64,000 nt of DNA from NCBI GenBank assembly GCA_037349105.1, contig JAYJMM010000121.1, positions 1,436,001 to 1,500,000 of the forward strand, given 5' to 3'. The stretch comes from Limnomonas spitsbergensis (lineage: Eukaryota > Chlorophyta > Chlorophyceae > Chlamydomonadales). The notes under the pieces were generated by a model. That model was not told the origin of the DNA and made no database searches. It saw nothing but the letters and a program-made list of their open reading frames with translations. A program made the translations under genes and the position numbers. This document shows, in pieces, positions 4,576 through 38,137 of this stretch (positions are counted from its first letter, which is position 1; each line of letters begins with the position of its first letter).

Positions 4576-5487
4576 TTATTGTGGGGTCCCATCTGCCGCT
4601 CCTACAGCCGCCGCATAGACTTCGCTGTAAGAAAAACTGAAATCCTCCACCAAAGCCGCCTGGCCCGACTCCGACTTGGAACCCGTCGCAAGACCCAAGC
4701 GCAGCTCAAGGCTGCCTCTCATCCTCGATCGCGGTGAAATCAAGTCACCCGCGAAGCCCCCCGCCCCTGCCGTTTCCCACGGTACAATTTCCGCTGTCGT
4801 CTGCGTCGGCGATCCCGGCAACGGCGGGAAGGGCGGCGGGCCGTTCGGCCTGAGATTGTTTTGGCTGGGGGAAATGCTGGGAGATCGGCCGGCAGCGGTC
4901 GCACTGTCCTGACGCGATGGCGGCTTGGGAAGATAACGCACTTCGCGGTCCACCGGTTGCGCCCGCAGCTGCTGCTGCTGACCCGATGGGGACAGAAGCT
5001 CCGGCAGCAACAGCGCCGCCGGCCGCACCAGCGGCGGCGTCAAAACTGCGCTTCCCTCCATCTTCTGCCCAGCTCCTTTGCGGCTCAGACCTGCCGGGTG
5101 CGCCAGCAGCGACGTCAACGCCTTCCGCCCGCCGCTGTTGTGGGGCGCCCCCGCTGCCGCCAGCGTCAGCGCAGCCGCGCATAATGACATGGCCGCGGCA
5201 TCGGCGCAACAGCCGTTGGCCGCCCTACCAAGATCGCCTTGCGAGCCTCCGCCACCGCCCTTATTTACAGCCGTGGCTGTTAGGTACGGCAGGCTGAGCG
5301 GAGCCGATGGTGGGGTCGCGACCACACTGGTGGCTGTTGCTGGTGCCGTCTGCCCCATGCGTTGCCAGGGCGGGGCTTCCCCAATGCTGCGTCTCATGCG
5401 GGCAGTGGACATGGCCATGACGTGGGACGAGGAGGGCGTCTGAGGCGCTTGGGGTGTTTGTGGGATGCGATGTGAAGGAGACTCCGG
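4576..5487 (-). CDS. Exon 12 (terminal) of the 12-exon gene
   Basis: It encodes 303 residues plus a stop, from PESPSHRIPQTPQAPQTPSS to VYAAAVGAADGTPQ. The acceptor is CCACCGCAG. It is Pro-, Ser-, Ala- and Gly-rich with a QQQQ tract and several RSxS-type basic/Ser sites, with no folded domain recognised. A 32-base repeat just upstream in the intron (5505-5590) contains decayed pieces of this exon start. Confidence 0.8.
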   Translation of the reverse strand, partial: PESPSHRIPQTPQAPQTPSSSHVMAMSTARMRRSIGEAPPWQRMGQTAPATATSVVATPPSAPLSLPYLTATAVNKGGGGGSQGDLGRAANGCCADAAAMSLCAAALTLAAAGAPHNSGGRKALTSLLAHPAGLSRKGAGQKMEGSAVLTPPLVRPAALLLPELLSPSGQQQQLRAQPVDREVRYLPKPPSRQDSATAAGRSPSISPSQNNLRPNGPPPFPPLPGSPTQTTAEIVPWETAGAGGFAGDLISPRSRMRGSLELRLGLATGSKSESGQAALVEDFSFSYSEVYAAAVGAADGTPQ

Positions 5488-8400
5488 CTGCGGTGGCAAC
5501 ATAAGCAGGAAATGCGATGTGGGTGGGGGCATGGGTTAGGAGATGCGATATGGGTGGGGGCATGGGTTAGGGGATGTGATAGTTCCCCCCAGTTTCCCCT
5601 CACTCCCCCTCCCCCCAGTCCCCCCTCTCAAATTTTGTTGCTTGTATTGCCCTCTGCCCAGACACCTTACCTCCCGCGGCATCCCTTCCACCGGCATAAA
5701 AACATCGCAAGTCATCCTCGAGAACTTTGGGGGTGGACCCAGCGGTTGACGCAGCATCCCAACAGCCACAGAGCCACCTGCCGCTCCCGATGCTGTCGCT
5801 CCTCTGTCAGCTACCGCTGCTCCTGGCTGGGATATGACTCCAGCTGGTTGCGACATCATGCTGCCTGGTTGGGAGCGCCGGGGGGGCAGGTCGGTCAGGC
5901 ACGCCGATCGCAGGGGCCCTGGAGCCAGTGGAGACACCTGAGCCATCATCACCCCTCGCTGGGATATCATTCCTGCCGGTTGGGACATCATCACCCCTGG
6001 CTGAGAGTGTCCGTATTTCACAGTCAGCTGCTCCTGCATGCGGTGTTGGCTCTGGCTCGATTTCATTGGGGATGTCGGCCCAGCCTGCAACACCAGCAGG
6101 AATTTGTTGTTGAGAATCATTTGGAGTCAGCTGCTCCTCTACACCGTGTTGGCCCTGGCATGATTTTATGGGGGACGTCTGCCCAGCCTATATCATCAGG
6201 CAACACCTGGGCAATACTTTGTTAAGACCAAATCACATTCGAGTAAAACCAGCTGTTTTTGTAGGCGGTGTTGGCTCTGGCTCCATTTCATAGGAGACGA
6301 CGACGGCCCAGCCTGCAGCCATAGTATGAATTGTTTTTTATTTTCATATTACAATTGTTCCAACTGAAACCAGCTGTTTTTGTAGGCGATGTTGGCTCTG
6401 GCTCAATTCCATGGGGATTTCGGCCCGGCCTATATCAGCAGGCAACACCTGGGTCATAGTTTGATAAGAATGTCAGTGAAGTCAGCTGCTCCTGGAGGCG
6501 GTGTTGTGTCTGGCTGGATTTCATAGGAGACGACGGCCCAACCTGCAACACCAGGAACACCGGGGCAATGTTTTGTTAATAATGAATTGCATCGGAATTA
6601 AGTCAGCTGCTCGTGCAAGCATTATTGGTTCAAATTCGTTCCTCGGGTATGGCGGCCCGGCCTGCAAATCCAGCTTTTTTTTTGTTCGGATAAATGGTTC
6701 CAACGTAAGTCAGCTGATTTTGTAGGTGGTGTCGGGTCTGGCTCAATTTCATGGGGAGGTTGGCCCAGCCTGCAGCCACAGCAGAAAAAATGTTGTTCGT
6801 AATAAACTGGTCCCAAGTTCAGCCAGCTACTCCTGCGGGCGGTGATGGCTGTGGTTGGACAGGCCATATTGGAAATCCATTTCAAATTTCAAATCCAAAC
6901 CGCATTAACATTCACCTGTTGACCTGTATCTGAGCACCTGTCTCCGAGAGGAACACCTCCTCATCTGACTGTTTCAAACTACCATATCACGAGTTTGAAT
7001 TTCGAATTTAAATTACATAACCACCCACCTCAGCCATACCACTGGCCTCCGGTAGGGACACCTCGCTCCTCATCCGTCCGTTTCAAACTACCATATCGAA
7101 ATTTCACATTCCAAATTCAGATAAAATTACCCATCTACGCCATACCACTGGCCTCTGGTAGACACACCTCGCTCCTCATCTGTCTGTTTCAAACTATCAT
7201 AAACAAATTTCAAATTTCGAATTCAAATAGACCACCCACCCACCTGTGCCATACCACTGGCCTCTGGTAAGAACACCTCGCTCCTCATCTGACTGCGCAT
7301 CCCCATCGGCGCCAGGCTGCCGTGCTGCTGCCGCTGCCGATTCCGCACGCCCACCTCGCACTGGACCATGTCGCTCCGCATCTGCACACTGGCGCCGCCG
7401 GGGCGGTGCCGCAGCGCCTGGGCCAGCGCCAACGCACGGGCGCGGGCGCCCTCCGCCTGAACCCGGCCCCCCTCCGCCTGCAGCCCCTGCGCCTGCACAT
7501 GGGCGAAATCCGCCAGCGCCTGTGCGCGGGCGGCGCCCTCCCCCGCCTGGGCCTGGTAGGCGCCCAAGGCCTCCTCCGGAGACCCCACTCGCTGCTGCTG
7601 GTAGTTCTGATAATAGTTGTGGTCGCCGCCCCGGCTGCTGGCGCCTCCTCTTCCTCCTCCGCCATAGAGGGACATTCGCTCGTCTGTGCTGCCGGTCTTG
7701 GGGCAGTCCGAGTCAAAGTCGATCGCCCCCCTGCAGCTGCTGCCGCCAGCGCTGGGTTGCATCCAAGCTGGGACCCCTGGCAAGCCCTCGAAGCCAACAC
7801 CTGCACACATCAGTTTTAATCAGTTTGATCAGTTTCATCACTTGTGATTTCAGGTACTGCCTTGGGCACCGTTTTTTCTCATTCTGGCTGCATCCGAGCA
7901 GGAAGTACCGGCAGGCCCTCGGGGCCAACACCTGCAAAAGTCTATTCAGGCAGTTATATACCGGTACTTACATTTTCAGTTATTTATCAGTTACTGGGCA
8001 CAGGGTTTGACATTGTGACAGGTTATGAGCAGAAAGTCCCGGCAGGCCCTCGGAGCCAACACCTGCACATATCAGTTTATCAGTTTGATCAGTTGTGATT
8101 TTACTGGGCGCAGTTTTTACATTCTGGCTGTATCCAATCAGGAACCCTTACAGGCCCTTGGAGCCAACACCTGCGCAAATCAGTGTAATCAGTGATATAC
8201 ATTTCCAGGTATTTTTCAGTTACAGATCCACTTGTCAATTATCAGATGAAGACCCCAATCCCCCAATCCTGAACCCTAGCACCGCACCTACAAAATGAAC
8301 CCTAAGGTACTGGTCCTACCTGGACGGAAACGCTTGCCGGTCATAAGAGAAAAAAACCCAAACCCTTACAGACCTGGGCACTTAACCCTTGGCACTGAAC

Positions 8401-11400
8401 CCTAAGGTACTAGTCCTACCTGGACAGATACGTTTGACTGTCATCAGGGGTCCCTGCGTGTGGGAGCAAGGGTGTGTGTATGAGTGGCAAGTGTGACAAG
8501 AGGCCACACAAGTGTGGCTTGTGACGAAGTTAGTGTGGAAGTGTGTGCATGCTGAGTGACCAGTGAGGGGTGAGAGAGTTTGGGTATGTTTGTGTGTGAG
8601 GAAGGAGTGAGCACGGAAGACTCCGCTGACATCAGATGTTCCACACTTTCCCTGTTGATAGGGACCGTCTTCTTAGTCCACACATTTCAGTCCACCCTGT
8701 CGCAATTGACACACCTCGCTTGACACCCGCTCTACACAGCAGTCAGAGTCTAGGCTGCCCCGTTGTGACATGCCCTCTTGCGGCTTTGCCAACGACCGCA
8801 CACCTCAACAACTTCCAGATTCTCTATCACATACTTTGACATGGGTTCCACATAGCAGCATGAGTTTAGGGTGCCTTCTTGTGACATGCCCCTTAGCAGA
8901 TTCAAAAATAACCAAGTACACAAGCCTGTGCACAAGCTACTCTATCACGCGCACCTCGTTTGACATGGGCTCCACATAGCAGCGTGGGTCCAGGCTGCCT
9001 CGTTGTGACATCCCGCCTTGAGGTTTTACAAACGACCGCGCTCCCAAACAGCTTTGAGACGTCCCAGAGCGGATCGCAGTCATTGTCGTCTCTTCCAGAA
9101 ACCGCGATTTGCTTTCGACACACGGGTTAAACGTAACGGTCTTCTTCAATACGATGACGGTGGTCTGAGGGAGCAAGCAGGGGAGATCATATGACTGATC
9201 ATTAGGTCTGTAAGGGAGCAAGCAAGGGAGATGGCCAAACACATGAGTTTGTTCAAGGTGTAGGATTCAGGTTTCAGGGTAGGGTTTGTTACAACCTGTC
9301 CAGGGTTGATGTCTAGGGTTCAGGTTTAGGGTTCAGGGTTGGGTGAAGGTGAGGGTTTATCTACTTTCGTGAGTGAGTCCAGTTTCTTGTTTCATGTACA
9401 GGTTACGTTTCTCTCATTTTGTGTGCATGCTTTTAACTTGAAAAGGAATTTGGGGAAAGTCTGCCCGCCCGAAAGCAGACCCCATTTTAATTTCTCTTGT
9501 TTACTGTGCTGATCTCAGACACGCAAACGATTTGAAAGCTGCCTGCCCCACGGCCCAAGACCAGGCTTCATGTTACCATGCAAAGTGAATTATAAGTTTC
9601 AAGGGCACAAGCAGGGAGGCGTTGGAACAACTGCAGGGCAATCTCAAGTTCTAGAATCAAGCTCGAGCGGGTTAGCCCCCCCACCCCCATCCCCTATTCC
9701 TGCCACCCCTTCCTCTCTGCCACCCTAGGGCGGTATATCTGCCACTGACATCGCCCAAATAGTATCGTTCCTAGCAGGAGCAAGCCCTCTGCGACACGCC
9801 CCCGCAACCTAAAGTATATGTTCTTGGGGTGTCAGTGCCAAGGCGCCACGATGCCCCCCATCCCCCATTCCTCTTGCGTCTCTCACGTCTGGTTTATCCG
9901 GCGCCCCAGGCACCGCCTGTCCGCTGGCCGTGTTTCTTTTTTCGGCTACAAGCCCACCTTTGGCAGGCCGCCCAGGGGGCGCCAAAGGCCCGATTGGACC
10001 CTCAAACAGCCTACAACTAGTGGCCAAAGCAGGACGGCTGGCCATAAATAACAGGCCAGAGGCCGGAGTGTAGCTGACATGTAGTCGAGTCAGGAAAAAA
10101 CAATACCCCCGTAACTCACGTCTGGTTGATCAGTCGCCCTTGACACCGCCTGTCCGCTGGCCTGCTCCACGTCCAAGTTGCCGCCCGGGCTAGTGGCTCC
10201 GGCTAAACTGCCTCCATCCCCCATTCCTCTTGCGTAACTCACATCTGGTTGATCTAGCGCCCCAGGCACCGCCTGTCCGCTGGCCTGCTCCGCATCCCTG
10301 CCACGGACATCGCTCTACAAGTATCTTTGAGAGCGGGAGCGAGCCCTCTATGACACGCCACCGCGACCTGCAGTATATGTTATTGGGGTGCCAGTGCCAA
10401 GTCGCCACGCTGCCCCCACCCACCCTGTCCCCACTTCCGATCCCCCCACGACACTCACGTCTGGATGATCCGGCGCCCCAGGCACCGCCTGTCCGCTGGC
10501 TTGCTCCGCGTCCAAGTTGCCGCCCGGGCTGGTGGCTCCGGAGTCAGACCCAGTGCTGCCGTGCTGACTGCTGGTATGGTGAGACCTGGGCCACGTACTG
10601 CCCAGTTGAGGACCCAAAGATGTAGGGTCCGATTGGCCTTCTGGTGGAGATGGTGTAGGATCCATCTGGAAAAATAATGAAGGGGAGGGAGTTCAGGGGG
10701 CAGGGTTCGTATAGTGGGGGCGAGAGGGCAAGAGGTTAAGAGGGTGAGATGCACTGCCCGTTTGGGGACCCAAAGATGCAGGGTCGCATGGACACTCTGG
10801 TGCCGATGAACATTCGGGTGCGGATGGTGTGGGATCCACCTAGTGGAATGATGTGGGAGGAGGGATGGCTAGGGGTTATGGAGCAGAGTTGAGAGAGGTT
10901 GGGTGGGGAGGCAACGTACTGCCTGGTTAGGGACCCAGGGCCCTGGGTTTGGATGGGTATTCGAGTGCAGAGGGTGATGAATCCGTCTGGCAAGAACAGG
11001 GCAGGGGAGGAAGAGTGGGGGGCATGGAGCTGGGGTGAGAGGGTTGGTGGGGGGGCATGAGCTGCTATTTTGAGGATCTTTATGCATGGGGCTGGTTAAG
11101 CACTTGGGTGCAGATGGTGATGTAACTACCGGACAGGATGACAGAGGGGAAAGAAAGGGCAATGTCAGGGTTCAGGGTTCAGGGTTCAGGGTTCAGGGTT
11201 CAGGGTTCAGGGTTCAGGGTTCAGGGTTCAGGGTTCAGGGTTCAGGGTTCAGGGTTCAGGGTTCAGGGGCCGTGTGTTTAACTGACAGGGATCACAATCT
11301 GGGGACCCACCCATCCCACCCACCTGACCTATGCCTGCCTCATATCCAGTATTAGCGGCCGCCATTGCGTCAACATCCACACCTGTGTCGTCCAGCATAG

Positions 11401-14400
11401 ACATCCTCCGATGCGCCTGTGAATGGAAACAATACAGAGGGTCGTGTATTACGGGATGCTATTCACCACTGACAGGCATCATTGCGGTCCTCTTTAGTGT
11501 CGTCCATTGTCATAGACATCCTCCGATGGACCCGATGGATACAACAAAACAATTGTGGATGCAGCATGAGATATGGATGTAGATTACGTGTCAATGTCTA
11601 CCATTGGCAGCCGCCACCGCTTCAAAAACTTCCCCGAATTCGTCCAGAACAGAAATTTTCCGATGGACTTGTGGATGCAGCATGATAGGAGCCCTACCAG
11701 CCATCATTGGAGCTAGAAGCGTAAAACAGCTTTGTTACTTCCTGCTGATTTTTCAGTGCAGTGCTAAGGCAGAAAGGATGCCTCCTCAATCCTGGACCAG
11801 CGTGTATAATAAATTCATTTGTATTCCAAATATTCATTTATATCATCTGTATGCTAATACTATTATCATAAAATTAAATATCATAATAACGGGTATTAAC
11901 CATCATTACCAATACCGGTATGTTACTATTATTATCACCGGTTTAATAACCCAACAACCTATTCCTTTATTCCAGAGCTGATGTACCTCTTTCGCCTGTT
12001 CCACTTGGGCTTGAAGGTCCAGAAGGAGGGCATGCCCTGCAATCAAGTCGGCCTTGGCCCTGGCACGTTTCTTGAACGCAAGCCAGGCTGCCTAGGGGGC
12101 ATGAAGGAGGAGGGGGGCAGAGGTTGGGGGGCCTGCCGAGGTAGAATTTGTATGTATCTTTGGTTACAGCGCGGATGTGGCTACGGCAAATGGCTACGGC
12201 CCCAAGCTGCATTGTTTCCTCAATATCCATGCCCCGGTAGGTCAAAGCTTTTGTTCTTTCTTCCTCGAGGTGGGATAGGTACGGCACTTAAAAGGGCGGG
12301 GTGGGAGGAGGGGTCGGGGAAAAGACCTCTCTTAACGTTTGGGGTTTAGGGATTAAGGCGTGCGTTGGCGGTGCCTGTTTCGCAGTGAACGGGAAATACA
12401 GGTGAGTATCATGGTAGAGCAGCATCATTCTGCGAAGAATGGGGGTGTGGGTTCGAATCCCATTGGAGTCGCCTGAACGATTGGTAAAACCTCTCGACGT
12501 GAAATGCCGTAGCTGGTCGTAATGGAAATCGCAAAAGATTACTGAGGTTCCGTAGAGTGATTGATCCACAATCGCAATGACACGGGGAAGGATGCACGTA
12601 TCCTGAACGGGAAGGTCTGTCCCTCGGGATCGCCTACACCTAGGGATTCGTTAACACGCACGAAGGATTGGAAACCATACGTAGTTCTTACTTCTTACAG
12701 GTGAGTAGGGAAGGGGACAGCGTTAGACGCCAAACGCGTTGAAACGTTTCAGGGATGGAGGGGGGCCAGCCCTCAACCCCCAACAACGATAATTGAGCAG
12801 GGAAGGCAAAGCAAATGTACAGCATCCAATAATCTAAGAATGCAAGAGCCAGGAATTAAGGAAAACGAGATTCCGGAATAAAAAAAAAGGACCTGGAGAC
12901 TGGTACTGCCGACTTCTTGCAGTGACACATGGGTTGCACTTCGCTTCCTACCAAAATAGTGTTCCCAGCCCTCTTTCTCAATGCGTCGTTCCGCTCCTCC
13001 CGTGCCCTCTCTGCCTGCCCCTTGGCCGTGCCGCCAGCGTCCTCAACAAGCGCTTTTGTATTATTGCGCAAAGCCAGCGACTCCTTGAGCCAATTCCTGT
13101 TGTTCCCCGCCTTGCTCCTGACGGGTTCTGGCCAAGTGCCCTCCGCAATGACGGGAGGCTCGACTTCAACTGGAAAACAAACAAACGGGAGGTGAAGAAA
13201 TAATACAGAAATGAAGAAAGCTACGCCCCGTGAGAGGTCTTAATGTTGAGGGGAAAGCGCAGCAGCCTGGGCCAAAGCCAGCAACTCATTGAGCCAATTT
13301 CTGCCGTTGCCTGCTTTGCCCTAGACAGGTCCTTGTCAAGTGCTGTCCATACCGGCACTTACGGGGGGCTTGACGACAACTGGAAGATAAAGATGCAGGC
13401 ACAGAAGGAATAATTGTATCATTACTCCATCGCATGCTCCAAATGGTGATTTGATACAGTAGAGTGGCCAAAAAATGCGTACCCGTGCTGTTTGTGTTTG
13501 TGTTGTGGCTCAGGTTTTCAAGGGTTCGGCAGCCAATTCCTGTTGTTGCCCCCCTTGCCCTGGACGGGTACTTGCCAAGTGCTCTCCGCACCGCCGGCAC
13601 CGACGGGAGGCTCAATGACAACTGGAATATAAAGATGCAGGTCCAGAAGACAACAATGTATTATTACTCCATCAGCACGCGCATGCTCCAAACGGTGTTT
13701 CCATACAGTAAAGGGGCCAAAAAATGCGCACCCGAGCTGTTTTTTGGTTTGTTGTGGCTCAGGTTTCAAGGGTTCGGCGGCAAATTCCTGTTGTTGCCCG
13801 CCTTCTTCTGACGGGTACTTGCCAAGTGCTCTCCGCACCGGCGCTGACAAGAAGCCCAACTACAGCTGGGGAAATATCAAATTAGGCCCATTCAAACTAG
13901 GCCCATTTAAACTAGGCCCATTCAAACTAGACTCATTCAAACTAGGCCAACACAAACTAGATCAACTCAAACTAGACAAAAAATCAAACTAAGAATTCAA
14001 ACTGGGCTAATTCAAAGTAGGCGCATTCAAAGAAGGCGCATTCAAACTAGGCTCATTCAAACTAGACTCATTCAAACTAGACCCATTCAAACTAGGCCCA
14101 TTCAAACTAGGCCCATTCAAACTAGGCCCATTCAAACCAGGCTAACACAAACTAGGCCCACACAACCTAGGTCAACACAAACTAGAAAAAACAAACTATG
14201 GAATTATAGGAATTCAAACTGGGCCCATTCAAAGTAGGCCCTTTCAAACTATGCCACACCATGCCAGGTAAAGGGTATCCCTTACCTGCCTTCTTTGGCC
14301 GGTCATCTTCGTCCTTGAGCCTATCAAACTTCCCATTCCATCGTAACACATATACCAGACCCATTCAAAGTTGGCCCATTTAAATAGAACTATGCCCATT

Positions 14401-17400
14401 AAAATGAGGCTAATTCAAACAACGAAAATTCAAACTATGCCCATTCAAACTATGTCCATTCAAACTATGTCAATTCAAAATATGCCGATTCAAACTAGGC
14501 CAAACCATGTCAGTTGGTAGGGAGCCCTCACCTAGGTCCTTTGGCCGGTCATCTTCGTCCTTGAGCTTGTCAAACAAGGCGAGATTGCTCCAGTCGTTGC
14601 CAGCAGCAGAAGCAGTATCAGGATCACAGGCGCGTTGAGCGTCCAACTGATGAGGACGAGGGGGCAAAAGGGAGGGTGTCAGGTCAGGACAGGAGGGGAA
14701 CAAGGTGAGATTGCTCCAGTCGTTGCTGGCAGCAGCTGTGTCAGGATCACAGGCGTGTGAGCGTCCAACTGATGAGGAAGAGAGGGCAAAAGGGAGGGTG
14801 TCAGGTCAGGACGTGAGGGGGAACAAGGTGAGATCGATCCAGTCGTTGCTGGCAGCAGCTGTGTCAGGATCACATGCACGTTGAGCGTCCAACTGATGAG
14901 GACGAGGGGGCAAAAAGGACGGTGTCAGGTCAGGACGGGAGTGGGAACAAGGTGAGATTGATCCAGTCGTTGCTGGCAGCAGGAGCTGTGTCAGGATCAC
15001 AGTTGAGCGTCCAACTGATGGGGAAGAAGGGGTAAAAGGGAGGGTGTCAGGTCGGGCCGGGAGAGGAAACAAGGTGAGATTGGTCCAGTCGTTGCTGGCA
15101 GCAGCTGTGTCAGGGTCACACGCACGTTGAGCGTCCAACTGATGAGGAAGAGGGGGCAAAAGGGACGGTGTCAGGTAAGGACGGGAGAGGAACAAGGTGA
15201 GATTGATCCAGTCGTTGCTGGCAGCAGCTGTGTCAGGATCACATGCACGTTGAGCGTCCAACTGATGAGGAAGAGGGGGCAAAAGGGAGGGTATCAGGTC
15301 AGGACGGGAGGGGGAACAAGGTGAGATTGATCCAGTGGTTGCTGGCAGCAGCTGTGTCAGGATCACAGTTGAGCGTCCGACAGATGGGGAAGAAGGGGTA
15401 AAAGGGAGGGTGTCAGGTCGGGCCGGGAGAGTAAACAAGGTGAGATTGGTCCAGTCGTTGCTGGCAGCAGCTGTGTCAGGGTCACAAGCACGTTGAGCGT
15501 CCAACTGGTGAGGAAGAGGGGGCAAAAGGGAGGGTGTCAGGTCAGGACGGGAGGGGGAACAAGGTGAGATTGATCCAGTCGTTGCTGGCAGCAGCTGTGT
15601 CTAGATCACATGCACGTTGAGCGTCCAACTGATGAAGAAGAGAGGGCAAAAGGGACGGTGTCAGGTCAGGACGGGAGAGGAAACAAGGTGAGATTGATCC
15701 AGTCGTTGCTGGCAGCAGCTGTGTCAGGATCACACGCACGTTGAGTGTCCAGCTGTAAAGGAAGAGATGGCAAGAGGGAGGGTGCTAGGTCAGGACGGGA
15801 GGGGGGCATTTTAAAGTTGCTCCAGCTGTTGCCGGCAACACCAGGGTAAAGTTAATCTAACCGTTGCGCTTCCAAATGAGGAGGGGGAGGGGGGCGAATG
15901 GGTGGGGGCTAGGACTCTTGGCAGACATTCCTCAGAGCTAAATTAAATTACGTCCGCACCCAACACACACAATCTCACCAGCTCTTGGCGGACATTTCTC
16001 AGAGCTAAATTAAATGAAATTAAACTACATCCGCACCCAACATACAAAGTCTCACCAGTAAGGCTGACGGATGGCGTATATGGAAATATACGTATATACG
16101 TGTATATTTGAGTCCCATATACGCATACTGGTATATGTTAAAATGTTGCTCTGTAATGCTCTGTAATGCTCTGTAATGCTCTGTAATGCTCTGTAATGCT
16201 CTGTAATGCTCTGTAATGCACTGTAATGCTCTGTAATGCTCTGTAATGCTCTGTAATGCTCTGTAATGCTCTGTAATGCACTGTAATGCTCCGTAATGCT
16301 CTGTAATGCTCTGTAATGCTCTGTAATGCTCTGTAATGCTCTCTAATGCTCTGTAATGCTCTGTAATGCTCTGTAATGCTCTGTAATGCTCTGTAATGCA
16401 CTGTAATGCTCCGTAATGCTCTGTAATGCACTGTAATGCTCCGTAATGCTCTGTAATGCTCTGTAATGCACTGTAATGCTCTGTAATGCTCTGTAATGCT
16501 CTGTAATGCTCTGTAATGCTCTGTAATGCTCTGTAATGCTCTGTAATGCTCTGTAATGCACGCCGCATCTGCGTTCTCGTTTCTACTCTCTTCGGCAGAG
16601 CCCCCCAGGGCGGCCGAAGGTCGCTGGGGCCGAAACCCCCAGAGTCATCCCGTATCCATCCGTCCGTCCGTCCGTTCTTCTCCAAGCGCAATTCGATGCG
16701 CATCATTAATAACACGGACCTGGCCAGCTATAGGGTTGTGATTCGTTCTTTGAAATTCTGTAAAATGGCTAGGGGGGTCGCATGGGGTCCAAGTGACCCT
16801 GTCCACACCTGCACCTGCCCTCTGAAAAGTCACATACCCGCTCGCTGCTGGACAAAGGGCATGCATCAGCGCTGGCCACTGTGCGAGCAGACCTCAAGAC
16901 TGCACAGTGCTATGCCATCACCACAGACGGGTGGCCGCAAACCCGATACTTGATTTGTTGTTGTATTTGAGCTGAATTTAAGGCTGACATGAGTAAACTC
17001 AATTTTTACATTGATGAAGTGATAGGTGAAGTTCAAGGCATGAAATGCCCTAGGTTTCAAGGCTTTTAAGATTTTCAGACCCCCATATACGTATACGGTA
17101 AATACGCGTATACACGTATATACGTGTATATTTCAGCAGAATATACGGTATATACCAGCCCTACTCACCAGCTCTTGGCGGACATTTCTCAGAGCTAAAT
17201 GAAATTAAATTACGTCCGCACTCAACATATATGATCTCACCAGCTCTGGGCGGACATATCTTACAGCCTAGATGAAATCAAATGAAATTAAATTACGTCC
17301 ACACACGTCATCTAGCATCTCACCAGCTCTTGGCGGACATTTCTCAGAGCGTCAATGACATTCTTCTTCACATAGATGACTTCCTGCTCCTCGTACCTGA

Positions 17401-18797
17401 GAGCAGGAGGGCAAGGACTCGTCAAGCTAGGAAGTGGCAAAATGAAGCAAAGGTGGACAGGGTATTCCAGTTGACAGTGACCATTTTTTCTCATTGACCT
17501 CCTGATTTTCGTGAGGACAGGAGGGCCATACCTTAGTCATTCTTAGTGGCAGAATGCAGCAAAGGCTGGTCAGGGCCTGCCGCGCACTGAGCCCCCCCCC
17601 CCTTCGTACTTGGGCCTGCCTTGAACTGACCCCCCCACAGGCCCACATGTACTTGGGCCTGCCGCGCACTGAGTCCCCACCCTTCTGTGTGGGCCTGCTG
17701 TGCGCTGAGTCCTCCTCCCACATTTGAAGGATTTTCTAAAAAAAATGTACTGCTCCCTGACCCCCCGCAGACATTTGGGTCAGGAAATTACGCACCATAC
17801 GTCATTGATGGGATGCAAATCATAATTTAACAGCTGTCCTAAGCTGTCAGGCCCCTCCATAAACTCACTTCGTTTTTCGCTTTTTTTGACCATGCATAGG
17901 GGCATCAAATTGGTCCTCAACACTACGGTAACAGCGCAGATGTGGCTTCGGCCCAGGGTTTGAGCTTCTCTCCATTCTTTGGTCAGCCCCACCAGCCGTG
18001 GCATGACATCCGTCCGCAACATTCCTGGGCCTGCCATTGATGTGCCCATGTCTCTCCCCTAGTCCCATGCATGGACGCTGTATGGGGATGGATAACACAC
18101 TCACTTGGGTTTGAGCTTCCCTCCAATCATTGTTCATCTCCATTGGACGCGAAATGAAACTTGTCCACAGCACACCTGGGCCAGCCATGGCTGTGTCCAT
18201 GTCTCCCCTAGCCCCATGCTTGGACATTGCATGGGAATGGATCACAAATTCACTTGGGTTTAAAATTCTCTCCATTATGTATCCCCACCGGCCACGGCAT
18301 GAAGCCTGTCCTCAACACACTCGGGCCAGCCATGTCAACACACTCGGGCCAGCCATGGCTGTGCCCATGTCTCCCCTGTAGCCCCATGCATGGGCACTGC
18401 ATGGAAATAGGTTGCGCACTCACTTGGGTTTGGGCTTCTCTCCAGTGTTCATCCCCACCGGCCGTGGCATGAAATGTGACCTCAGTATACCTGGGCCAGC
18501 CATGGCTGCCCCGATCTTGCCCATGGATGCTGCATGGGTATGAACCTCGACATGAGTTCCGTAGGCACGGCTGCCGTAGCCGGGTGTATCGCCAGCCACC
18601 CCCACTGCTGCTGCAAATTTCGCCGCTGAGGCTGCTTCTTCTTCTTTCGCCTGCCATGCTGCTGTCGCTGATGCCTCCTTCGCAGCAGCTTCTGCCGCTG
18701 CGTCTGACGCTGCCAAGAGGGGGCGGGGGAGGCCGTCATGCAGGCTATGGCTGGGATCTCCTGCTGCTGCTGCTGCTGCTGCTACTGGCGGCATCAC
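4576..18797 (-). CDS. Twelve-exon gene, 1,092-aa protein of unknown function
   Basis: Exons in coding order are 18797-18424, 17396-17324, 14646-14532, 13169-12952, 12091-11987, 11416-11324, 10665-10459, 9164-8955, 8453-8420, 7800-7277, 6084-5671 and 5487-4576. Together they make 3,279 bases, exactly 1,093 codons with the stop. Non-zero phases match at each of the three junctions where they occur (exons 1/2, 3/4 and 9/10), which is hard to obtain by chance. The start is ATGATG at 18797, with TATATAAG on the same strand at 19026-19019. A TGTAA lies 18 bases after the stop. The N-terminal half is charged and probably helical (YVKKNVIDALRNVRQEL; LKDEDDRPKDL; AWLAFKKRARAKADL). The C-terminal half is disordered and rich in Pro, Gln, Ala and Ser. 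No signal peptide, membrane segment or catalytic motif is seen, and I do not recognise the family. A scaffold or coiled-coil protein is possible but is only inference. Most introns contain arrays copied from the gene's own junctions. Confidence 0.75.
5671..6084 (-). CDS. Exon 11 of the 12-exon gene
   Basis: It is 414 bases, phase 0 at both ends, from AGPTSPMKSSQSQHRMQEQL to FMPVEGMPRE. The acceptor is GTTGCAG and the donor GAG|GTAAGG. The middle has imperfect repeats of MSQPAG/ISQPG type, typical of a disordered linker. Confidence 0.8.
6088..6880 (-). repeat. Seven extra copies of the exon 11 acceptor and first 65 bases
   Basis: With the intact exon there are eight units, their CAGCTG ends at 6024, 6127, 6250, 6371, 6483, 6604, 6710 and 6823, with a period of 103-123 bases. 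Each has CAG or a decayed CAG, then GCTGGGCC, ATGAAAT, GAGCCAGAGCCAACACCG and CAGCTG. Some copies stay open (AGPSSSPMKWSQSQHRLQKQ), others carry frameshifts or stops. Some could be alternative exons. Confidence 0.85.
6940..7276 (-). repeat. Three copies of the exon 10 donor region
   Basis: Copies at about 7160, 7055 and 6945 carry GATGAGGAGCGAG followed by GTGTY and the downstream CAGAGGCCAGTGG segment. The spacers are AT-rich. Confidence 0.75.
7277..7800 (-). CDS. Exon 10 of the 12-exon gene
   Basis: It is 524 bases, entering with GT (completing Gly) and leaving in phase 0. It starts GFEGLPGVPAWMQPSAGGSS and contains YYQNYQQQ and a long Ala/Gln/Arg-rich helical stretch (ARARALALAQALRHRPGG). 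The acceptor is TGTGCAG and the donor GAG|GTGTTC. Confidence 0.75.
7801..8190 (-). repeat. Three copies of the exon 10 acceptor and 5' end
   Basis: Copies end at about 8180, 8075 and 7940. Each has GCAGGTGTTGGC-type starts and the GGGCYTGCC segment; spacing is about 105-135 bases. Confidence 0.75.
8420..8453 (-). CDS. Exon 9 of the 12-exon gene (34-bp microexon)
   Basis: It encodes GPLMTVKRICP plus one base. The acceptor is CCCACACGCAG and the donor CCAG|GTAGGA. Its one-base overhang is what makes the long exon 10 readable in the frame that stays open to its own donor, so the microexon is supported by phase. A decayed copy with the same GTAGGAC donor lies at about 8305-8345. Confidence 0.6.
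8690..8954 (-). repeat. Two copies of the exon 8 3' end plus donor
   Basis: Copies at about 8835-8910 and 8700-8800 retain GGCATGTCACAA...GCTGCTATGTGGAACCC-like sequence (peptide RGMSQEGTLNSCCYVEPMS in the first). Spacing is about 130 bases. Confidence 0.7.
8955..9164 (-). CDS. Exon 8 of the 12-exon gene
   Basis: It is 210 bases, phase 0 at both ends. It starts TTVIVLKKTVTFNPCVESKS and ends GSLDPRCYVEPMSNE. The acceptor is CTCCCTCAG and the donor GAG|GTGCGC. Confidence 0.7.
9870..10458 (-). repeat. Three copies of the exon 7 3' end plus donor
   Basis: Copies end near 10245, 10115 and 9880. They keep the segment encoding SGQAVPGAP, followed by a donor-like GTGAG or GTGAGA. Spacing is about 130-240 bases. 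A neighbouring segment containing ATGTTMTTGGGGTGYCAGTG is also duplicated (9818 and 10377). Confidence 0.7.
10459..10665 (-). CDS. Exon 7 of the 12-exon gene
   Basis: It is 207 bases, phase 0 at both ends. It starts MDPTPSPPEGQSDPTSLGPQ and ends ASGQAVPGAPDHPD. The acceptor is TTTTCCAG and the donor GAC|GTGAGT. It is disordered and rich in Pro, Ser and Gly. Confidence 0.7.
10735..11010 (-). repeat. Two copies of the exon 7 acceptor and 5' end
   Basis: Copies at about 10745-10835 and 10920-11000 keep an AG followed by a GGATCC- or GGATTC-like start and a GGGTCCC end. They are frame-broken. Confidence 0.6.
11167..11268 (+). repeat. Interstitial telomere-like heptamer array (TTCAGGG)n
   Basis: It holds about 14-15 near-perfect copies of TTCAGGG, one base away from the Arabidopsis-type telomere heptamer TTTAGGG used by many green algae. 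It lies in intron 6 of the 12-exon gene. Degenerate mixtures of TTCAGGG and TTTAGGG also occur at about 9265-9360. Confidence 0.9.
11324..11416 (-). CDS. Exon 6 of the 12-exon gene
   Basis: It is 93 bases, phase 0 at both ends: AHRRMSMLDDTGVDVDAMAA then ANTGYEAGIGQ. The acceptor is ATTCACAG and the donor CAG|GTGGGT. Two decayed copies of its 5' part lie upstream at about 11470-11535 and 11600-11670. Confidence 0.7.
11987..12091 (-). CDS. Exon 5 of the 12-exon gene
   Basis: It is 105 bases, phase 0 at both ends, and encodes AAWLAFKKRARAKADLIAGH followed by ALLLDLQAQVEQAKE, a probable amphipathic helix. The acceptor is CCCCTAG and the donor GAG|GTACAT. No start codon lies inside, so it is visible only by splice logic. 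Confidence 0.7.
12160..12700. repeat. Dispersed repeat with a tRNA-like box, second copy near 50.3-50.7 kb
   Basis: Two sub-blocks, 12165-12235 and 12598-12695, recur in the same order but on the opposite strand at 50705-50640 and 50415-50318, at roughly 85-90 per cent identity by eye. Between them, 12445-12470 contains GGGTTCGAATCCC, a B-box-like sequence with flanking bases able to pair as a T-arm, plus GGTAGAGC upstream as a possible D-arm. A full cloverleaf does not form. It may be a tRNA-derived SINE, which is inference. Confidence 0.45.
12952..13169 (-). CDS. Exon 4 of the 12-exon gene
   Basis: It is 218 bases. It starts with TT (completing Val with exon 3), then EVEPPVIAEGTWPEPVRSKA and NNRNWLKESLAL, and ends RKRAGNTIL. 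The acceptor is TTTTCCAG and the donor TTTTG|GTAGGA. The second half (KGQAERAREERNDALRKR) is strongly charged and probably helical. Confidence 0.75.
13280..13870 (-). repeat. Three decayed copies of the exon 4 acceptor and 5' end
   Basis: Copies at about 13285-13390, 13526-13625 and 13780-13865 repeat the start of exon 4, with peptides like GAESTWQVPVQGKGGNNRN against EGTWPEPVRSKAGNNRNWL in the intact exon. Spacing is about 240-250 bases. Confidence 0.75.
13876..14510. repeat. 15-bp minisatellite in intron 3
   Basis: The unit is CATTCAAACTAGGCC with many single-base variants, in two blocks separated by a decayed copy of the exon 3 end. It is moderately degenerate. Confidence 0.85.
14532..14646 (-). 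CDS. Exon 3 of the 12-exon gene
   Basis: It is 115 bases: 38 codons plus one base. The peptide starts LDAQRACDPDTASAAGNDWS and ends FDKLKDEDDRPKDL. The acceptor is CATCAG and the donor CCTAG|GTGAGG. The leftover G joins TT of exon 4 to make Val. A decayed copy of its 3' end with a GTAAGG donor lies at about 14.28-14.33 kb. Confidence 0.75.
14647..15830 (-). repeat. About ten tandem copies of the exon 3 acceptor and 5' half
   Basis: The unit is about 115-125 bases. It holds intron end, CAG, then the exon-like piece TTGGACGCTCAACGTGCATG through AACGACTGGATCAATCTCAC. All copies lie upstream of the intact exon, in intron 2. They leave a long open frame (about 240 codons at 14806-15525) that I do not regard as a gene. 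Copies show 5-12 per cent divergence by eye. Confidence 0.85.
16139..16559. repeat. 10-bp tandem repeat, about 42 copies
   Basis: The unit is ATGCTCTGTA, nearly perfect, with occasional CACTGTA or CTCCGTA variants that themselves recur in a pattern. It lies within the hAT element. The long minus-strand reading frame across it (period ITEHYRALQS) is a by-product of a repeat without stops. Confidence 0.95.
16842..16968 (+). pseudogene. hAT transposase fragment
   Basis: The frame reads SLLDKGHASALATVRADLKT, then a stretch containing AQCYAITTDGWPQTRYLI, before a stop. The TTDGW core is typical of the catalytic domain of hAT transposases. Only about 40 residues remain, with no BED finger or C-terminal dimerisation region nearby. 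It cannot encode an active enzyme. Confidence 0.6.
17324..17396 (-). CDS. Exon 2 of the 12-exon gene
   Basis: It is 73 bases. It starts with one base (G) that completes the AAG codon left open by exon 1, then encodes YEEQEVIYVKKNVIDALRNV and RQEL. The acceptor is CTCTCAG and the donor CTG|GTGAGA. The peptide is charged and probably helical. Confidence 0.75.
17940..18423 (-). repeat. Tandem copies of the exon 1 3' end plus donor
   Basis: Three decayed copies follow the real exon, each about 150-180 bases, with the AGPGVLRT-like segment and a GARGCYCAAACCC end. The copies at about 18.26 and 18.11 kb keep GTGA after the exon-like part. They sit directly inside intron 1. Confidence 0.75.
18424..18797 (-). 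CDS. Exon 1 of the 12-exon gene
   Basis: It encodes 124 codons plus two bases, from MMPPVAAAAAAAGDP to NTGEKPKP(K). The donor is CCCAA|GTGAGT. The N-terminus has an Ala run from a CAG/CTG-type trinucleotide tract, then an Ala/Glu/Lys-rich helix-like stretch, then a segment reading HAASMGKIGAAMAGPGILR. That last segment recurs in decayed form downstream in the intron and in a separate exon near 49.9 kb. Confidence 0.75.
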
Positions 18798-21953: not shown

Positions 21954-24900
21954 TCATCCAAGGAATATCTTCCTCCAAAAAGTCTCTTCCTCCAAGAAGC
22001 CTCTCGCGCCTCTTCCTCCTCTTCCGTCCCTTCCTCCTCTTCTGCCGCAGGCCTGTGATGTGACCAACATGTCCCCCATTTCCAGGGCGAACTTCTCCCA
22101 CATCACCACATGCTGCGTCAGCACAGTGATCTGCTCCTCATCGGTCATGCACAAGTACCCTGGCACAGTGATCACGAACGTGCTCAGCTTGACCCTGGTG
22201 GCCACTGGCAGCCCCTCATAGAACATGTGCGAGACCGATTGCTTTCTGCCAAAGTAGTCCACTGCATCCCTGGAGATATGCAGCAACTCTGCTGTGGACA
22301 GGACTCTGTGCGCAAACGCCTCAGTCCACTGTCTCCTCTGGCTTGATCTCCGGATCCAAGGTGGTCTTGACTCCCAACTTGAGGTTGGTGATCGCGGATC
22401 TCTCATCCTAGGTCAGCTTCCCCACCTCCTCCTTTACCACCCTGATCCACAGGGTAAGCAGGGAAACCTCACAGCACTGCTCCTCTACTGGAGCGGCCCA
22501 CTGCCCCCTGATCCTTTCCACCTCCTTGGTGACCCTGTCCTTTGCGTGGGGCGCTGCCCTGATGGCCACCATCAACGGCCCCACACTGGCAGGCTTGTTG
22601 TTCCACAACCTGTCCAGGGATCGCACGAGCATGGCCATGGCCAAGGGTGACTGGCAGGATCTAACATTTTCCCCTGCCACCATGGCCAGCGCCGGCGGTT
22701 CATCGGACAACGCCAGCCGGTTGTGCGACCCCCAATAGCCGCATGCCTGGCAGTACTTCCTGACCGCGACAGCTCCGGGCTGGGCCATATCCAACACAGG
22801 CACCTTGCCTTGGATGGTCGGGATTTTGGTGAACCTGGTCACACCAGTCAGCTGCATGACCATCTGCTTCTGCAACTGCAGGCTCACCTCCGCATGCTCC
22901 ATATCCAACCTCTTTTTCTTTCGCTTCATTGACTCCCGCCTGGCCCCTGGCCCGCGCCTGTCAGATCCACCTGATCCGGACTCGTCTGAACTGGAGTCTG
23001 ATCCATATCCGCACATGTCGCCCCCTGGTGGGCTGCGACTGCGCTGGCTGTTTCTGCGGCCAGCCCCATCCTGGGCTTGTCCGCCCCCTGACGACTGTCT
23101 GCCGGCCCCGCCCGCGGAGCCTCTGCTCCTCTCGGGTGGCGGCTGATCAGCCGCATCTCTGCTTTTTCTCTCCTCTGAGCCAGACTCCCGAGGCTGTGTT
23201 CCTCTGCCGGATTCTGCCTGCCCCCTGGGCGGCTTCTGACTTGGCCCGCCTGGCTACGTGTCCTCCTGCCGTATTCGGCCTGCCCCCTGGGCGGCTCCTG
23301 GCTTTGCCAGTTTGGCTGTTCCCTGCCGTCTGCCTGCCCCCTGGGCGGCTCCTGGCTCTGCCATCGCGGCTCTTTTCCTCTGCCGTACTCATGTCCCCTG
23401 GGCGGCTCCTGGCTCTGCCAGCTTGGCTGTTCCCTGTCGTCTGCCTGCCCCCTGGACGGCTCTTGGCTCCGCCATCGCGGCTCTGTTTCTCTGCCGTACT
23501 CCTGCCCCCTGGGCGGCTCCTGGCTCGGCCTGCCTGGCTGTGTCCCGCCTGTGTAATTCCTGGCCCAGGAATCTGACAGCACCTCCTCTCTGGCCTCTCT
23601 GGACCTTGGGGTGGGCGCGGCCCTTGCCTGCTGCTGCCACCTTTGGACCTCCCTGAGCTCCTCTGGTTGCTGCACAGCTGTTTCAAAACCTTCCCACACT
23701 TGATCCTCCTCTTCTTCATCCTCGGATTCAGATCCAGGTTCCTCCTGATCTCCCTTCACCCCATTGCACCACTCATCTGCGAAGGCCTTGACGGCCAGGG
23801 CTGCCTCGCGTCCTGCTCCTCCCTTGGACGCCTGTCCAAGGGCGGCCAACAGCCCCCAGCATCGCCATGTCCTGCCCCGTGTGTGGAATCCCCATCATGG
23901 CCTTCGTTGCCCACTCCCTCAGATGATGGGCCCTGAATTCCTTAATGGCCTTCACCTGATCGCTGAAGTGGAAGAAATACATGGAGCAAACTTGCTTCCA
24001 CAGGCTCGCCGCCCACTGCAGAATCCCCCTCCAGCCGATCGGCTTCAGATCCTCCTCAATCAGCTCCTCTAGATCTGCCACCTTCACCGCCCTGGAGTGC
24101 TCTGACTCTCTGGGGCCTTCCTCCTATGCCCACGCTGGATTGTTGAAAAATCCACACATGCCGCCTCCTCGGCTGCTGCCTCTCTTCACTTGGCCGCTAA
24201 ATCCCTCCTTGAATCTCTGCACAGGCCTGCCCACACTGGGGGAAAACCTGTACAGGGGTGTTCCATACACCGTGGACCCTACCACCCTCCTGACTGGAGT
24301 GCGGCGGGGCCTCAGCTGCCTCCTCGGATGCAGCCCTGCCGTCAGCTGCGGCCCCTTTTGCACTTGCACCTCTGGAATGGGATCTGACAGCTCTTCTTCC
24401 GACATCAGGTCAGCCCACGGCTTTCCCACCGGCACAGCCGCCCTTTTGCTCTGGATCCGCGGTTCATCGCTCTCCTGCGAAACTTGCCCGGCCATCGCTG
24501 GTTTGGCTCCTGCCCCCTAACGCTTGACCTATGCAGGCCCGCGCCTGGCCACACTCACCTCTGCTTTCACCAGCGGCTCGCCTGCCCTGACCTTGTCACG
24601 GCCTGCAAGCCCCTCTGGGCCTGCGGCAACATCCGCCCTTTGGTCACTTTGGCTGGATTCCTCCTTGACCCAATCCGCATTGCTTCCTCTGCAATCACTG
24701 CATCACTGGCCTCAGCCGGGTCCTCACCCGGCTCCAGCCCCCTCTGGATGTTGGCATCCATGAGGTGCTCACATGCCCTGTTGCTGTGCTCGCACTCGAA
24801 CCCGCAGAACATATATACTCCTCCGGTGTTTCGCCTCATGGCCTGACGCATGGCATTGCGGATGTCCATCGGCTGCTGACGGGCACCTGTTGCGCGATCC

Positions 24901-26855
24901 TCCCAGAGCCTCGCCAGCTCCACATCTGCAGGCACCGCATCATGGATTGCTACCATGCACACATTCCTGCTGCTGCTGTCGTCCACGGGTGCTGGCACCG
25001 GAGACTTGCTGCTCCTAGCTGCTTCCACGTCATTGTCAGTTGCCCTGCCTGCCACTGCCTGGCTGGACCTGCTGCAGCCGTCTGGGCCGAGACTCAGGCT
25101 AGGGCTGGCTTGACCCACTGGCCCACACTGCTCTGCTGAGCGGAAGCCCTCCTGTCTGGGAAATCTGGGCGCGCACCCCTGCTGCAGCTGTGGCTGTGCT
25201 TCTTCTTTCACTCCGTGGCCGGCCAGCTCAGCCCTGTGCCCACTGGGTAGTGCCACGTGCCACGCAACCATGGCTGTGTGCTGCAGCTGCTGCTCTTCCT
25301 CCTCCTCGCCTTGTGGCAGCAGCGTCTGCAGTTTCTTTGCCAAGCGACGCTTCATCATCCTCAGCTTCCTGGTCATTCTCATCTGTCAGGCCATCCCTGG
25401 CTGCCTGGCCATCCACAGCTGCCTGGCCATTCCTTTGAGCTTCTGCCGGTACCAGTTCACATTTTCCCTCAGCATGGGTATGGAGATATCCAGCTCCATT
25501 GACCCCTCAGGGTTCTCTGCCGCAACAGGCTTGGGTGAATGTCCTCTGGGTTTCCCATGTGCACTGCCCTGGCTGGTTGGGCTTGTTTCCCTTGTGCCCG
25601 GGATCGCCTGCCTTGCCCCTTCAGTTGGACCATGCACGGCCAACCCCTCTGGCAGGTTGCCTGTCTGGCCCCCCTTCAGTCCTGAGGCCTCGACATGGGA
25701 CTGGCTAGGGCCGTCGGCAGCTGCAGGCACACCTGCCACACCCTTGGGCGCCCCCAGCCATATGATGGCCTGCTGGACCGCCCCTGGTTCAGGTCTTGGC
25801 ACCCGGCCCCCTCCTAGAGCTGCTGCCACCGGTGGTGTGACATGCCCATCCTCTTCTGGCTGGTGCATCTGCACCAATACCGGCGCCTGTCTGTGCACGT
25901 GGTCCTCAATCCCCCTCGATCCTGCCGGTTCCTCGGCCACCTGCTGGTTCAGCTTCTGCTCCCACGAATGCAGTTGGCCCGGCTCGCAGCCACCGGCCAC
26001 CACAGGTGTCACAGGAGCTGCCCCCCTCTGCAAGCACAGCTGTGGCGCCTGCACCTGCAGTTGGCCTGGCTCGTAGCCACCAGCCACCACAGGTGTCACA
26101 TGAGCTGCCTCCCTCTGCAAGCACAGCCGCGACGCCTGCACCTGCAGCTGGCCTGGCTCGCAGCCACCGGCCACCACAGGTGTCACATGGGCTGCCTCCC
26201 TCTGCAAGCACAGCCGCGACGCCTGCACCTGCAGTTGGTCTGGCTCGCAGCCACCGGCCACCACAATTTGATCCTCCTGATCTTGTTTATCCTGCTCTGG
26301 GGCGACCCCGAACCTCGCATAATCCTCAGCCTCGCTTGCCTTGCGCGGGCCAAGCCTGTGCCCAGCCCTTCCTGTCAGATCACAGCTGATCAGGTGCAGC
26401 TGCTCGCTAGCTACCGGGCTATCCCGCCTGGGTCGACATGCACTTCCTGCCGGGAGACAGCTGGTCAGGTGCAGCTGCTTGTTAGCTACCGGGCTATCCC
26501 GCCTGGGTGGACAGGCACTTCCTGCCTGAAAACAGCTGATCAGGTGCAGCTGCTCGCTAGCTACCGGGCTATCCCGCCTGGATGGACAGGTACTTCCTGT
26601 CTGCAAACAGCTGATCAGGTGCAGCTGCTCGCTAGCTACCGGGCTATCCCGCCTGGGTGGAAAGGCCCTCCCCCGGGCCTGCTGTTGGTCCCTGGGACTT
26701 GGCTCACTGTCACTGCTGAGGATATCAAACATGGACCAGCCGTTGGGGGACACCTGATTACCTGGCTGCTCCATACAACTGGTCAGTGCCTCCAAGGGTG
26801 CGCGCTGCTGGGGCACAGCCAGACTGCTTAACCCTGCCTGCTCTGCGTCACACAC
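21954..26855 (-). pseudogene. Broken gag-like polyprotein region of the retroelement
   Basis: A run of minus-strand frames covers most of the body. Frames 26855-25386 and 25382-24567 are one frame interrupted by a single TGA. Then frames 24495-24124 and 24087-23773 share a frame with one stop. Shifts are needed near 23.85 and 23.0 kb, and after a TAG at 22408 the region continues to about 21954. Visible parts are: four repeats of RRDSPVASEQLHLISC type; four of VVAGGCEPGQLQVQASRLC type; a Cys/His cluster FCGFECEHSNRACEH; a tryptophan-containing helical stretch (GWRGILQWAASLWKQV); repeats of SQEPPRGQ; and YCQACGYWGSHN, possibly a zinc knuckle. Position and composition fit a structural gag protein, but no family match was made. 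The frame breaks point to decay. Confidence 0.5.
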
Positions 26856-27734
26856 ACTTTTCTACACTCCAGTGGCCCACTGCCCGAGCCTGTTCCACCC
26901 TATTGCTGAGCCAGATCCTCCTTCCTTTTTCCTGGGGGCCATTCCGCAGTGGCGGCCGCTTTTGCTCCACCCACCGCCTGCAGATCTGCAGGTTTCCTGA
27001 TCACCTGACTTCCACCACGGGGCATCGTCCCGTTCTCCTTTTTAACGCACTGCGCAGCACTTGCCACTCTCAGCAGCCTCTTCTGCGTCGCGTATTCTGG
27101 CCCACTGCCTAGGTCTCTGGCTCCCCCGCACTCTGCTGCCCCCTCTGGGGCCTGCCCCTTGATCACCGTGATCGGGCTCGTTCTTGATTTGTCGCGCGGC
27201 CCCTGCCCCACTGGGCAAGTCCTGCTCTGCTGCGCCTTCTGGACCACTGTCCCGATCTGCGCCACTGGTCTGCGACACCTCAGCGGCCGGGTCCAATGTC
27301 AGCTCAGGGGTTCTTCCTCCCTGTCTCAACCACTGCGCATATTCCAGGCCTTGCCTTGGAATATCCAGGGTTGATTGGGGCACTGGTCCACCTCGGCCGA
27401 TCCCTTTGTGCAACACTTCAGCGCCCACAGTGCCATCAGCCTGCCCAACGTCCTTGGGCTAAGCTTGATCTGCACTGGGCACCTTGCACCCCAAAGCTGC
27501 GGGATCCTCGATCCCTGCTAGCCCGCGGGAAATACGCATCGCTTCTCCCTCAAGCGCCATCTGCCGCTCTGAGTCCAGGCCCTGCCTTTCTGAGGGCTTG
27601 CTAGACAGGTCTGGTTGACAGTAGCTTAAGGACAGGCAATCCGACTCTTTCTATTTGCTCAACATGATCTGGTGCTAGGCGGAATTCTCCTTCGCCCGTA
27701 CCAGCTTTCTTTCTCACAACTTTCTCCCAGCTTT

Positions 27735-29962: not shown

Positions 29963-29968
29963 GGGGCT

Positions 29969-30010
<42 letters not shown>

Positions 30011-30035
30011 GTTGGTTCGATCCCGACTGGCCCTA
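29963..30035 (+). tRNA. tRNA-Phe (GAA)
   Basis: It is 73 bases and intronless. The acceptor pairs GGGGCTA with TGGCCCT (two G-T pairs), with discriminator A. The D-stem is GCTC/GAGC, the anticodon stem TCAGA/TCTGA with loop CTGAAGA (anticodon GAA, 29996-29998), and the T-stem GTTGG/CCGAC with loop TTCGATC. The A box (TAGCTCAGTTGGG) and B box (GGTTCGATCCC) are intact. The D and anticodon arms match plant nuclear tRNA-Phe, so this is a nuclear gene. The CCA is not encoded. Confidence 0.96.
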
Positions 30036-38115: not shown

Positions 38116-38137
38116 TGCCGGCAGAAGCAAACCTCAC

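Follow-up and report, generated by a model that had tools for sequence, protein, structure and literature searches.

Tandem arrays of splice junctions in the introns of the snow alga Limnomonas spitsbergensis and their probable origin by nearly random local duplication

Introduction

Introners are dispersed families that remodel algal introns on a large scale, a likeness that they share with the arrays of Limnomonas described here, and Zhuo et al. reportedly dealt in 2007 with introns that arise from tandem arrays.

Among the closest described systems, the volvocine algae Chlamydomonas reinhardtii and Volvox carteri carry tandem repeats that are densest in introns and commoner near intron-exon junctions (PMC3887541), while an intron of the potato RdRp gene was gained via one tandem duplication across an intron-exon boundary (PMC4974935). 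In human segmental duplications, internal tandem repeats at exon-intron boundaries alter intron structure (PMC2812944). The genome of the Chlamydomonadalean snow alga Limnomonas spitsbergensis is described as having 260,248,090 bp in 124 contigs and a GC content of 54.15%, and introns of its merged annotation average 788 bp (PMC11228838); for C. reinhardtii a median intron length of 229 bp is given (PMC8226300).

The arrays of Limnomonas resemble those of the volvocine algae in being intronic tandem repeats of a green alga that often lie at junctions, whereas the repeats of the volvocine study have units of 1–50 bp only, and the accessible part of that report describes no junction-containing units, exon sequence or decoy sites (PMC3887541). 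With potato RdRp they have in common a tandem duplication that crosses the boundary and splice signals that are inherited by copying; in potato, however, a single duplication made a new intron, whereas in Limnomonas many copies lengthen existing introns and no new intron is shown (PMC4974935). The human paralogues, as far as that source sets them out, have 27 intron modifications, often with alternative transcripts (PMC2812944), in contrast to Limnomonas, in which arrays occupy nearly half of the sampled introns (59 of 122) and the copies are apparently unconstrained. A search by titles and the starts of abstracts, outside which most subscription papers lie, found no description of multi-copy splice-junction arrays.

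Methods

The window is the whole stretch of 64,000 nucleotides that was analysed, and positions refer to it unless the contig is named. For each border, a junction probe was compared with its own intron using a threshold set at the second highest of 100 dinucleotide shuffles, and at least 18; a copy counts as crossing if it reaches 10 bases or more to either side of the junction.

The Pfam family AAA_6 served to find exons of dynein heavy chains, and the introns between consecutive exon matches were then worked out using splice consensus, phase and the query positions, CCT/Cpn60 and kinesin introns being inferred in the same way. Neighbouring matches were left out when their query positions could not be joined, with a gap beyond the range -15 to 12. 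For dynein, one pair gave no solution and two of 54 inferred introns were dropped (score under 0), so that 52 were used; for CCT, three pairs were without DNA and one of 31 inferred introns was dropped (score under 0), leaving 30; for kinesin, 17 of 61 pairs were without DNA and four had low scores, leaving 40. The resulting 122 homology-anchored introns derive from best-scoring matches, so the sample is one of conserved, well-scoring exons.

Under the null for placement, the chance that a unit placed at random so as to touch an intron crosses a border was calculated from its length, u, and the ancestral intron length, L0. In the accompanying simulation units were placed at random, and exons evolved at a quarter of the intron rate.

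Results

A 12-exon gene and the arrays at its borders

A preliminary description, made from the sequence of the window, had proposed a 12-exon gene, which holds as a single open, in-phase frame of 1102 aa on the minus strand with GT..AG introns (Table 1). The GC content is 0.63 in the exons versus 0.50 in the introns overall. Exons 1–4 of this predicted gene are well supported, a paralogue providing independent backing for these exons only, and exons 5–12 are predicted on the basis of frame, composition and splice consensus. Pfam scans of the first 325 residues and of the reading frames of exons 10 and 12 gave no match, and a protein search with residues 80–480 found no relatives.

Table 1. 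Predicted gene and associated repeats in the window
Feature	Position in window	Strand	Remarks
12-exon gene, family unassigned, 1102 aa	4579..18794	-	in-phase frame, GT..AG introns; exons 1–4 conserved in paralogue
Exons 1–6	18794-18424, 17396-17324, 14646-14532, 13169-12952, 12091-11987, 11416-11324	-	
Exons 7–12	10665-10459, 9164-8955, 8453-8420, 7800-7244, 6084-5671, 5487-4579	-	
Exon 1 donor array	17956..18504	-	unit ~170 bp; 2 crossing copies + 1 ending at junction
Exon 2 donor array	15915..17362	-	~80-bp units; 5 copies = 2 crossing + 3 partial; split by ~1 kb insertion
Insertion within exon 2 donor array	16123..17110	-	array copies resume on both sides; holds 10-bp satellite
Exon 3 acceptor array	14572..15913	-	10 decoys; unit ~124 bp; higher-order period 369 bp
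Exon 3 donor	14227..14575	-	1 decoy copy (14329-14227) + 15-bp satellite
Exon 4 acceptor array	13069..13881	-	3 decoys; unit ~245 bp
Exon 6 acceptor array	11342..11677	-	2 decoys; strict rule: 1 crossing + 1 partial
Exon 7 acceptor array	10597..11159	-	2 decoys + weak third
Exon 7 donor array	9840..10541	-	3 decoys
Exon 8 donor array	8712..9059	-	2 decoys; strict rule: 1 crossing + 1 partial
Exon 9 donor	8296..8447	-	1 decoy
Exon 10 acceptor array	7755..8223	-	3 decoys
Exon 10 donor array	6879..7295	-	3 decoys; unit ~109 bp
Exon 11 acceptor array	6022..6859	-	6 decoys + decayed seventh
31-bp repeat near exon 12 acceptor	5507..5581	-	no junction crossing; stops 29 bases short

Junction probes revealed crossing copies in the adjacent intron at 14 of the 22 borders and in nine of the 11 introns, and arrays cover 7,374 of the 10,910 intron bases, with a similarity between copies that is far above chance. 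The copies lie head to tail within the introns, as in minisatellite-like arrays, and intron 10 is nearly filled by the exon 10 donor and exon 11 acceptor arrays jointly. Units span one junction and part of an exon rather than a whole exon, by which tandem exon duplication of the mutually exclusive type was rejected for this gene. The copy counts previously given for each border agree closely with ours once partial copies are included, and one crossing copy at the exon 2 acceptor and one copy at the exon 3 donor, both overlooked, are to be added. The accompanying statement that almost every boundary is repeated was overstated, as the junction probes detected no crossing copy at eight of the 22 borders (exon 4 donor, exon 5 acceptor and donor, exon 6 donor, exon 8 acceptor, exon 9 acceptor, exon 11 donor and exon 12 acceptor); at the last of these, for which a partial array had been claimed, the repeat ends before the junction. 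A decay of the units with distance from the exon had also been reported but was not borne out, the nearest copy proving more alike than the farthest in only six of 11 arrays with at least three copies. In most arrays the copies differ by 5–40%.

The two ends of the insertion in the exon 2 donor array are related (17147-17110 versus 16123-16086, 84% alike), and its 10-bp satellite extends over 16147-16559 with about 41 copies. By eye, a short stretch of this insertion recalls a hAT-type transposase motif, but a Pfam scan of a single frame over 150 bases turned up nothing significant for the suspected transposase. A 15-bp AACTAGGCCCATTCA-type satellite (13873-14503) lies next to the exon 3 donor with its one decoy, and intron 6 holds a perfect 7-bp TCAGGGT array of about 15 copies (11165-11268) that resembles a variant of a telomere-like repeat.

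Growth of the exon 3 array and comparison with a paralogue

Most of the exon 3 acceptor decoys are about 0.9 identical. Amplification of multi-unit blocks, as in satellite-type dynamics, is evident in this array, the one looked at: a period of 369 bp is superimposed on the 124-bp units, two units three steps apart form a tight, near-identical pair (support 0.98), and divergence is far greater in the outermost unit than in any other. Taken together, these features amount to block amplification with an old edge and not to one-by-one copying from the exon.

A genome search (260,226,709 bases, 124 contigs) with part of the exon 3 array as query led to the paralogue of exons 1–4, which lies on the same contig about 400 kb away (C121:1038613-1044400, about 1.039–1.044 Mb). 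The exon 3 unit gave at least five matches, at least four of them in its own array and at least one in the paralogue; related sequence in many unrelated introns was not encountered with this one unit, and introners were rejected accordingly. Protein identity between the two genes is 67.5, 65.5, 76 and 34% for exons 1 to 4, respectively, and five splice points are common to both, namely the exon 1 donor and the acceptors and donors of exons 2 and 3. Exons 5–12 have no match in the stretch of the paralogue examined, and the comparison of introns is that of introns 1–3, each of which has a counterpart in the paralogue, with or without arrays. In the paralogue, the donors of exons 1 to 3 and the acceptor of exon 2 are free of copies. 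Copies are present in both genes in the exon 3 and exon 4 acceptor regions: the paralogue has two at the exon 3 acceptor, which together with the real junction form their own clade (support 0.97), and three spaced about 130 bp apart, versus about 245 bp in the window gene, that were counted where exon 4 begins, since its acceptor was not located in the paralogue. Given the four borders without copies, the separate exon 3 clade and the different exon 4 spacing, the arrays are labile and lineage-specific, or else homogenised within each gene.

Arrays in conserved gene families and intron length

Tandem arrays were found in 59 of the 122 introns of dynein, CCT/Cpn60 and kinesin genes, a few weak ones perhaps by chance since two of 25 shuffled introns reached the array score threshold, and 47 of the 244 borders are crossed. 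The pattern is thus not peculiar to the window gene and is general in the families sampled. In the 52 dynein introns, junction probes detected crossing copies at 13 donors and 13 acceptors, and one dynein intron of 2,217 bp holds five donor and 11 acceptor copies.

Across the conserved genes, introns have a median length of 307 bp when free of arrays and of 656 bp when they hold them; the latter value falls to 411 bp after removal of the extra copies, which total 21,288 of the 69,116 bases of intron sampled (31%). Array-bearing introns remain longer after this removal (411 versus 307 bp, p = 0.005), as would be anticipated if long introns offer more room for duplication or if some of the older copies escape notice.

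Placement of arrays relative to exon borders

The preliminary description held that units always straddle an exon-intron border, and had proposed comparing array edges with borders. By sensitive self-alignment this applies to 11 of 12 arrays in the window gene (5.9 +/- 1.5 expected), a gene chosen because it looked extreme, but only to 46 of 70 in the conserved genes pooled, where random placement predicts 34.5 +/- 3.9 and the other 24 arrays are wholly intron-internal. By family, 21 of 34 arrays cross in dynein (18.0 +/- 2.7 expected), 15 of 25 in kinesin (11.3 +/- 2.3) and 10 of 11 in CCT (5.2 +/- 1.6). Arrays called by TRF cross in 11 of 41 cases in the dynein introns (10.3 expected) and in five of 10 in the window gene (2.3 expected). 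Such high shares are to be anticipated in part, as units of straddling arrays (median 132 bp) are not small beside the ancestral introns (median 411 bp without the extra copies), and roughly half of all randomly placed units would therefore cross a border.

The excess differs with the best-pair identity of the arrays. In the conserved genes, 17 of 31 arrays cross at an identity of at least 78% (13.7 +/- 2.6 expected), 15 of 19 at 70–78% (10.3) and 14 of 20 under 70% (10.5), such that the diverged arrays together contribute 29 of 39 versus 20.8 expected. The straddling excess thus resides mainly in diverged arrays, where simulation shows a detection bias. At low divergence the formula is close to the detected straddling share, and at 18–23% divergence per copy the detected share lies above the formula in three of four settings (0.64/0.50, 0.59/0.51 and 0.56/0.42, the fourth being 0.43/0.44), since internal arrays are lost from detection more often at high divergence because the exon half stays alike. 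Uncorrected, the pooled excess amounts to about 3 standard deviations; by our own estimate, a bias-corrected expectation of approximately 39–40 of 70 reduces it to about 1.6. Detection bias explains part of the excess, perhaps not all of it, and a true border bias, if present, would be modest. Crossings are above the uncorrected null overall and near expectation in high-identity arrays.

Units overhang the exon by a variable 19 to 200 bp. The overhang is non-uniform (KS test, p = 0.007 for dynein, with a mean of 0.34 of the unit, and p = 0.02 for all 36 rows) and somewhat shorter than a uniform draw, as would result if long stretches of exon were weakly selected against or if the ends of the alignments had eroded. 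In the dynein introns, repeats cover 177 of 301 interior points versus 26 of 104 borders, a rough comparison in that the interior points come more from long introns.

Divergence and constraint of the copies

Identity between the real junction and its decoys is 0.83 on the exon side and 0.81 on the intron side, and between decoys 0.84 and 0.80, respectively, with the exon side higher in 11 of 17 arrays. This near equality suggests that the copies drift with little or no constraint. The splice dinucleotide is kept in 27 of 38 decoys for GT and in 45 of 50 for AG, which is little above the retention of neighbouring columns, and some decoys have indels or have lost the site. Of the 57 straddling arrays, 16 have a unit length that is a multiple of 3, close to the one third that chance would give, and in this respect decoys are unlike coding sequence. 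Column conservation, the identity of decoys on either side and unit length modulo 3 thus gave no clear support for functional decoys.

Discussion

Arrays in three gene families, near-random placement of those of high identity, similar divergence of exon and intron sides and a measurable contribution to intron length were all observed in this study, and local tandem duplication at nearly random places, combined with tolerance at borders, quite probably explains the arrays. Under such a process, the duplication of stretches of about 80–250 bp, placed almost at random, would lengthen introns. Duplications wholly within a coding exon would mostly be purged by selection, and those within an intron or over one exon-intron border would be tolerated. 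After a border-crossing event the exon-proximal copy would retain the original junction; if that site is the one spliced, the extra copies, including their piece of exon, would be removed together with the intron. As ancestral introns were presumably only a few times the unit length, about half of random units may be expected to cross a border. From two copies onwards, unequal exchange or slippage could add further copies, at times as multi-unit blocks, and the extra copies would then drift under little or no constraint. The link with borders would accordingly reflect mostly random duplication and tolerance, sharpened by the longer visibility of exon-anchored copies.

The preliminary description had offered two ideas, of which selection in favour of arrays that retain the exon-proximal site agrees with this reading, and a junction-specific copying process is mostly unneeded. 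As a sole cause, such copying is weakened by the variable overhang, the internal arrays and the near-random placement of high-identity arrays. Placement in the conserved genes is mostly as random duplication predicts. A milder form, in which a base-composition step, R-loops, splice-site sequence or splicing-coupled damage favours the start of duplication at borders, appears unlikely. The uncorrected excess of straddling arrays (46 versus 34.5 +/- 3.9), the figures for CCT (10 of 11 versus 5.2) and the window gene (11 of 12 versus 5.9), and the presence of copies at two corresponding acceptor regions of the paralogues, each gene with its own set of units, would all favour it. However, high-identity arrays have little excess (17 of 31 versus 13.7 +/- 2.6), detection bias lifts the expectation for diverged ones, the overhang varies, 24 of 70 arrays lie entirely within introns, base composition changes little at the borders of conserved genes (GC 0.59 in exon flanks versus 0.54 in introns), and the window gene was selected for looking extreme. 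In its most far-reaching version, equally doubtful in our view, borders would be hotspots at which tandem duplications arise, perhaps by way of DNA damage coupled to transcription or splicing, introns would lengthen chiefly by copying their own ends, and the spliceosome would tolerate at least ten near-identical decoys per intron via an unusually strong exon-proximal rule.

That the decoys are spare junctions retained for splicing, as alternative sites, recursive sites or a brake, strikes us as very improbable. The frequent retention of AG (45 of 50) and GT (27 of 38) and the slightly higher identity between decoys on the exon side are in its favour, but retention of these dinucleotides is little over that of neighbouring columns, frame is not kept (16 of 57 units divisible by 3), some decoys have indels or a lost site, and four arrayed borders of the window gene are without copies in the paralogue. 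We attach just as little weight to an artefact of wrong exons or of copies made by the assembly: exons 5–12 of the window gene are without a relative and the protein search was empty, yet exons 1–4 and five splice points are conserved in the paralogue, the same pattern stands beside homology-anchored exons of three families, and the copies of most arrays differ by 5–40%, unlike assembly duplicates. Nearly random duplication with tolerance at borders is thus preferred.

If exon-proximal sites are indeed used, the cell regularly selects a single junction where as many as eleven near-identical candidates are present, and the arrays constitute a natural experiment on splice-site choice and exon definition. 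They also offer a concrete route for intron lengthening, array-bearing introns having about twice the median length of array-free ones. More generally, no border-seeking process is required for satellites that seem to respect borders, provided that their units fall not far short of the intron in length, and exon-anchored arrays are recognisable for longer.

Neighbouring features of the window

Tandem repeats also occur inside long open frames of the window (22926-26861 and 54539-56410). All 11 TRF rows that lie wholly inside five other long open frames have a period divisible by 3, and such frame-keeping repeats in putative open frames fit duplication everywhere with selection deciding survival. 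The window further contains a satellite of 34-bp units that extends over 8.5 kb (39850-48337, about 249 copies with 91% matches), an array of some 136 copies of a 20-bp unit over 2.7 kb (35415-38123) and a tRNA gene on the plus strand (29963-30035, Rfam RF00005).
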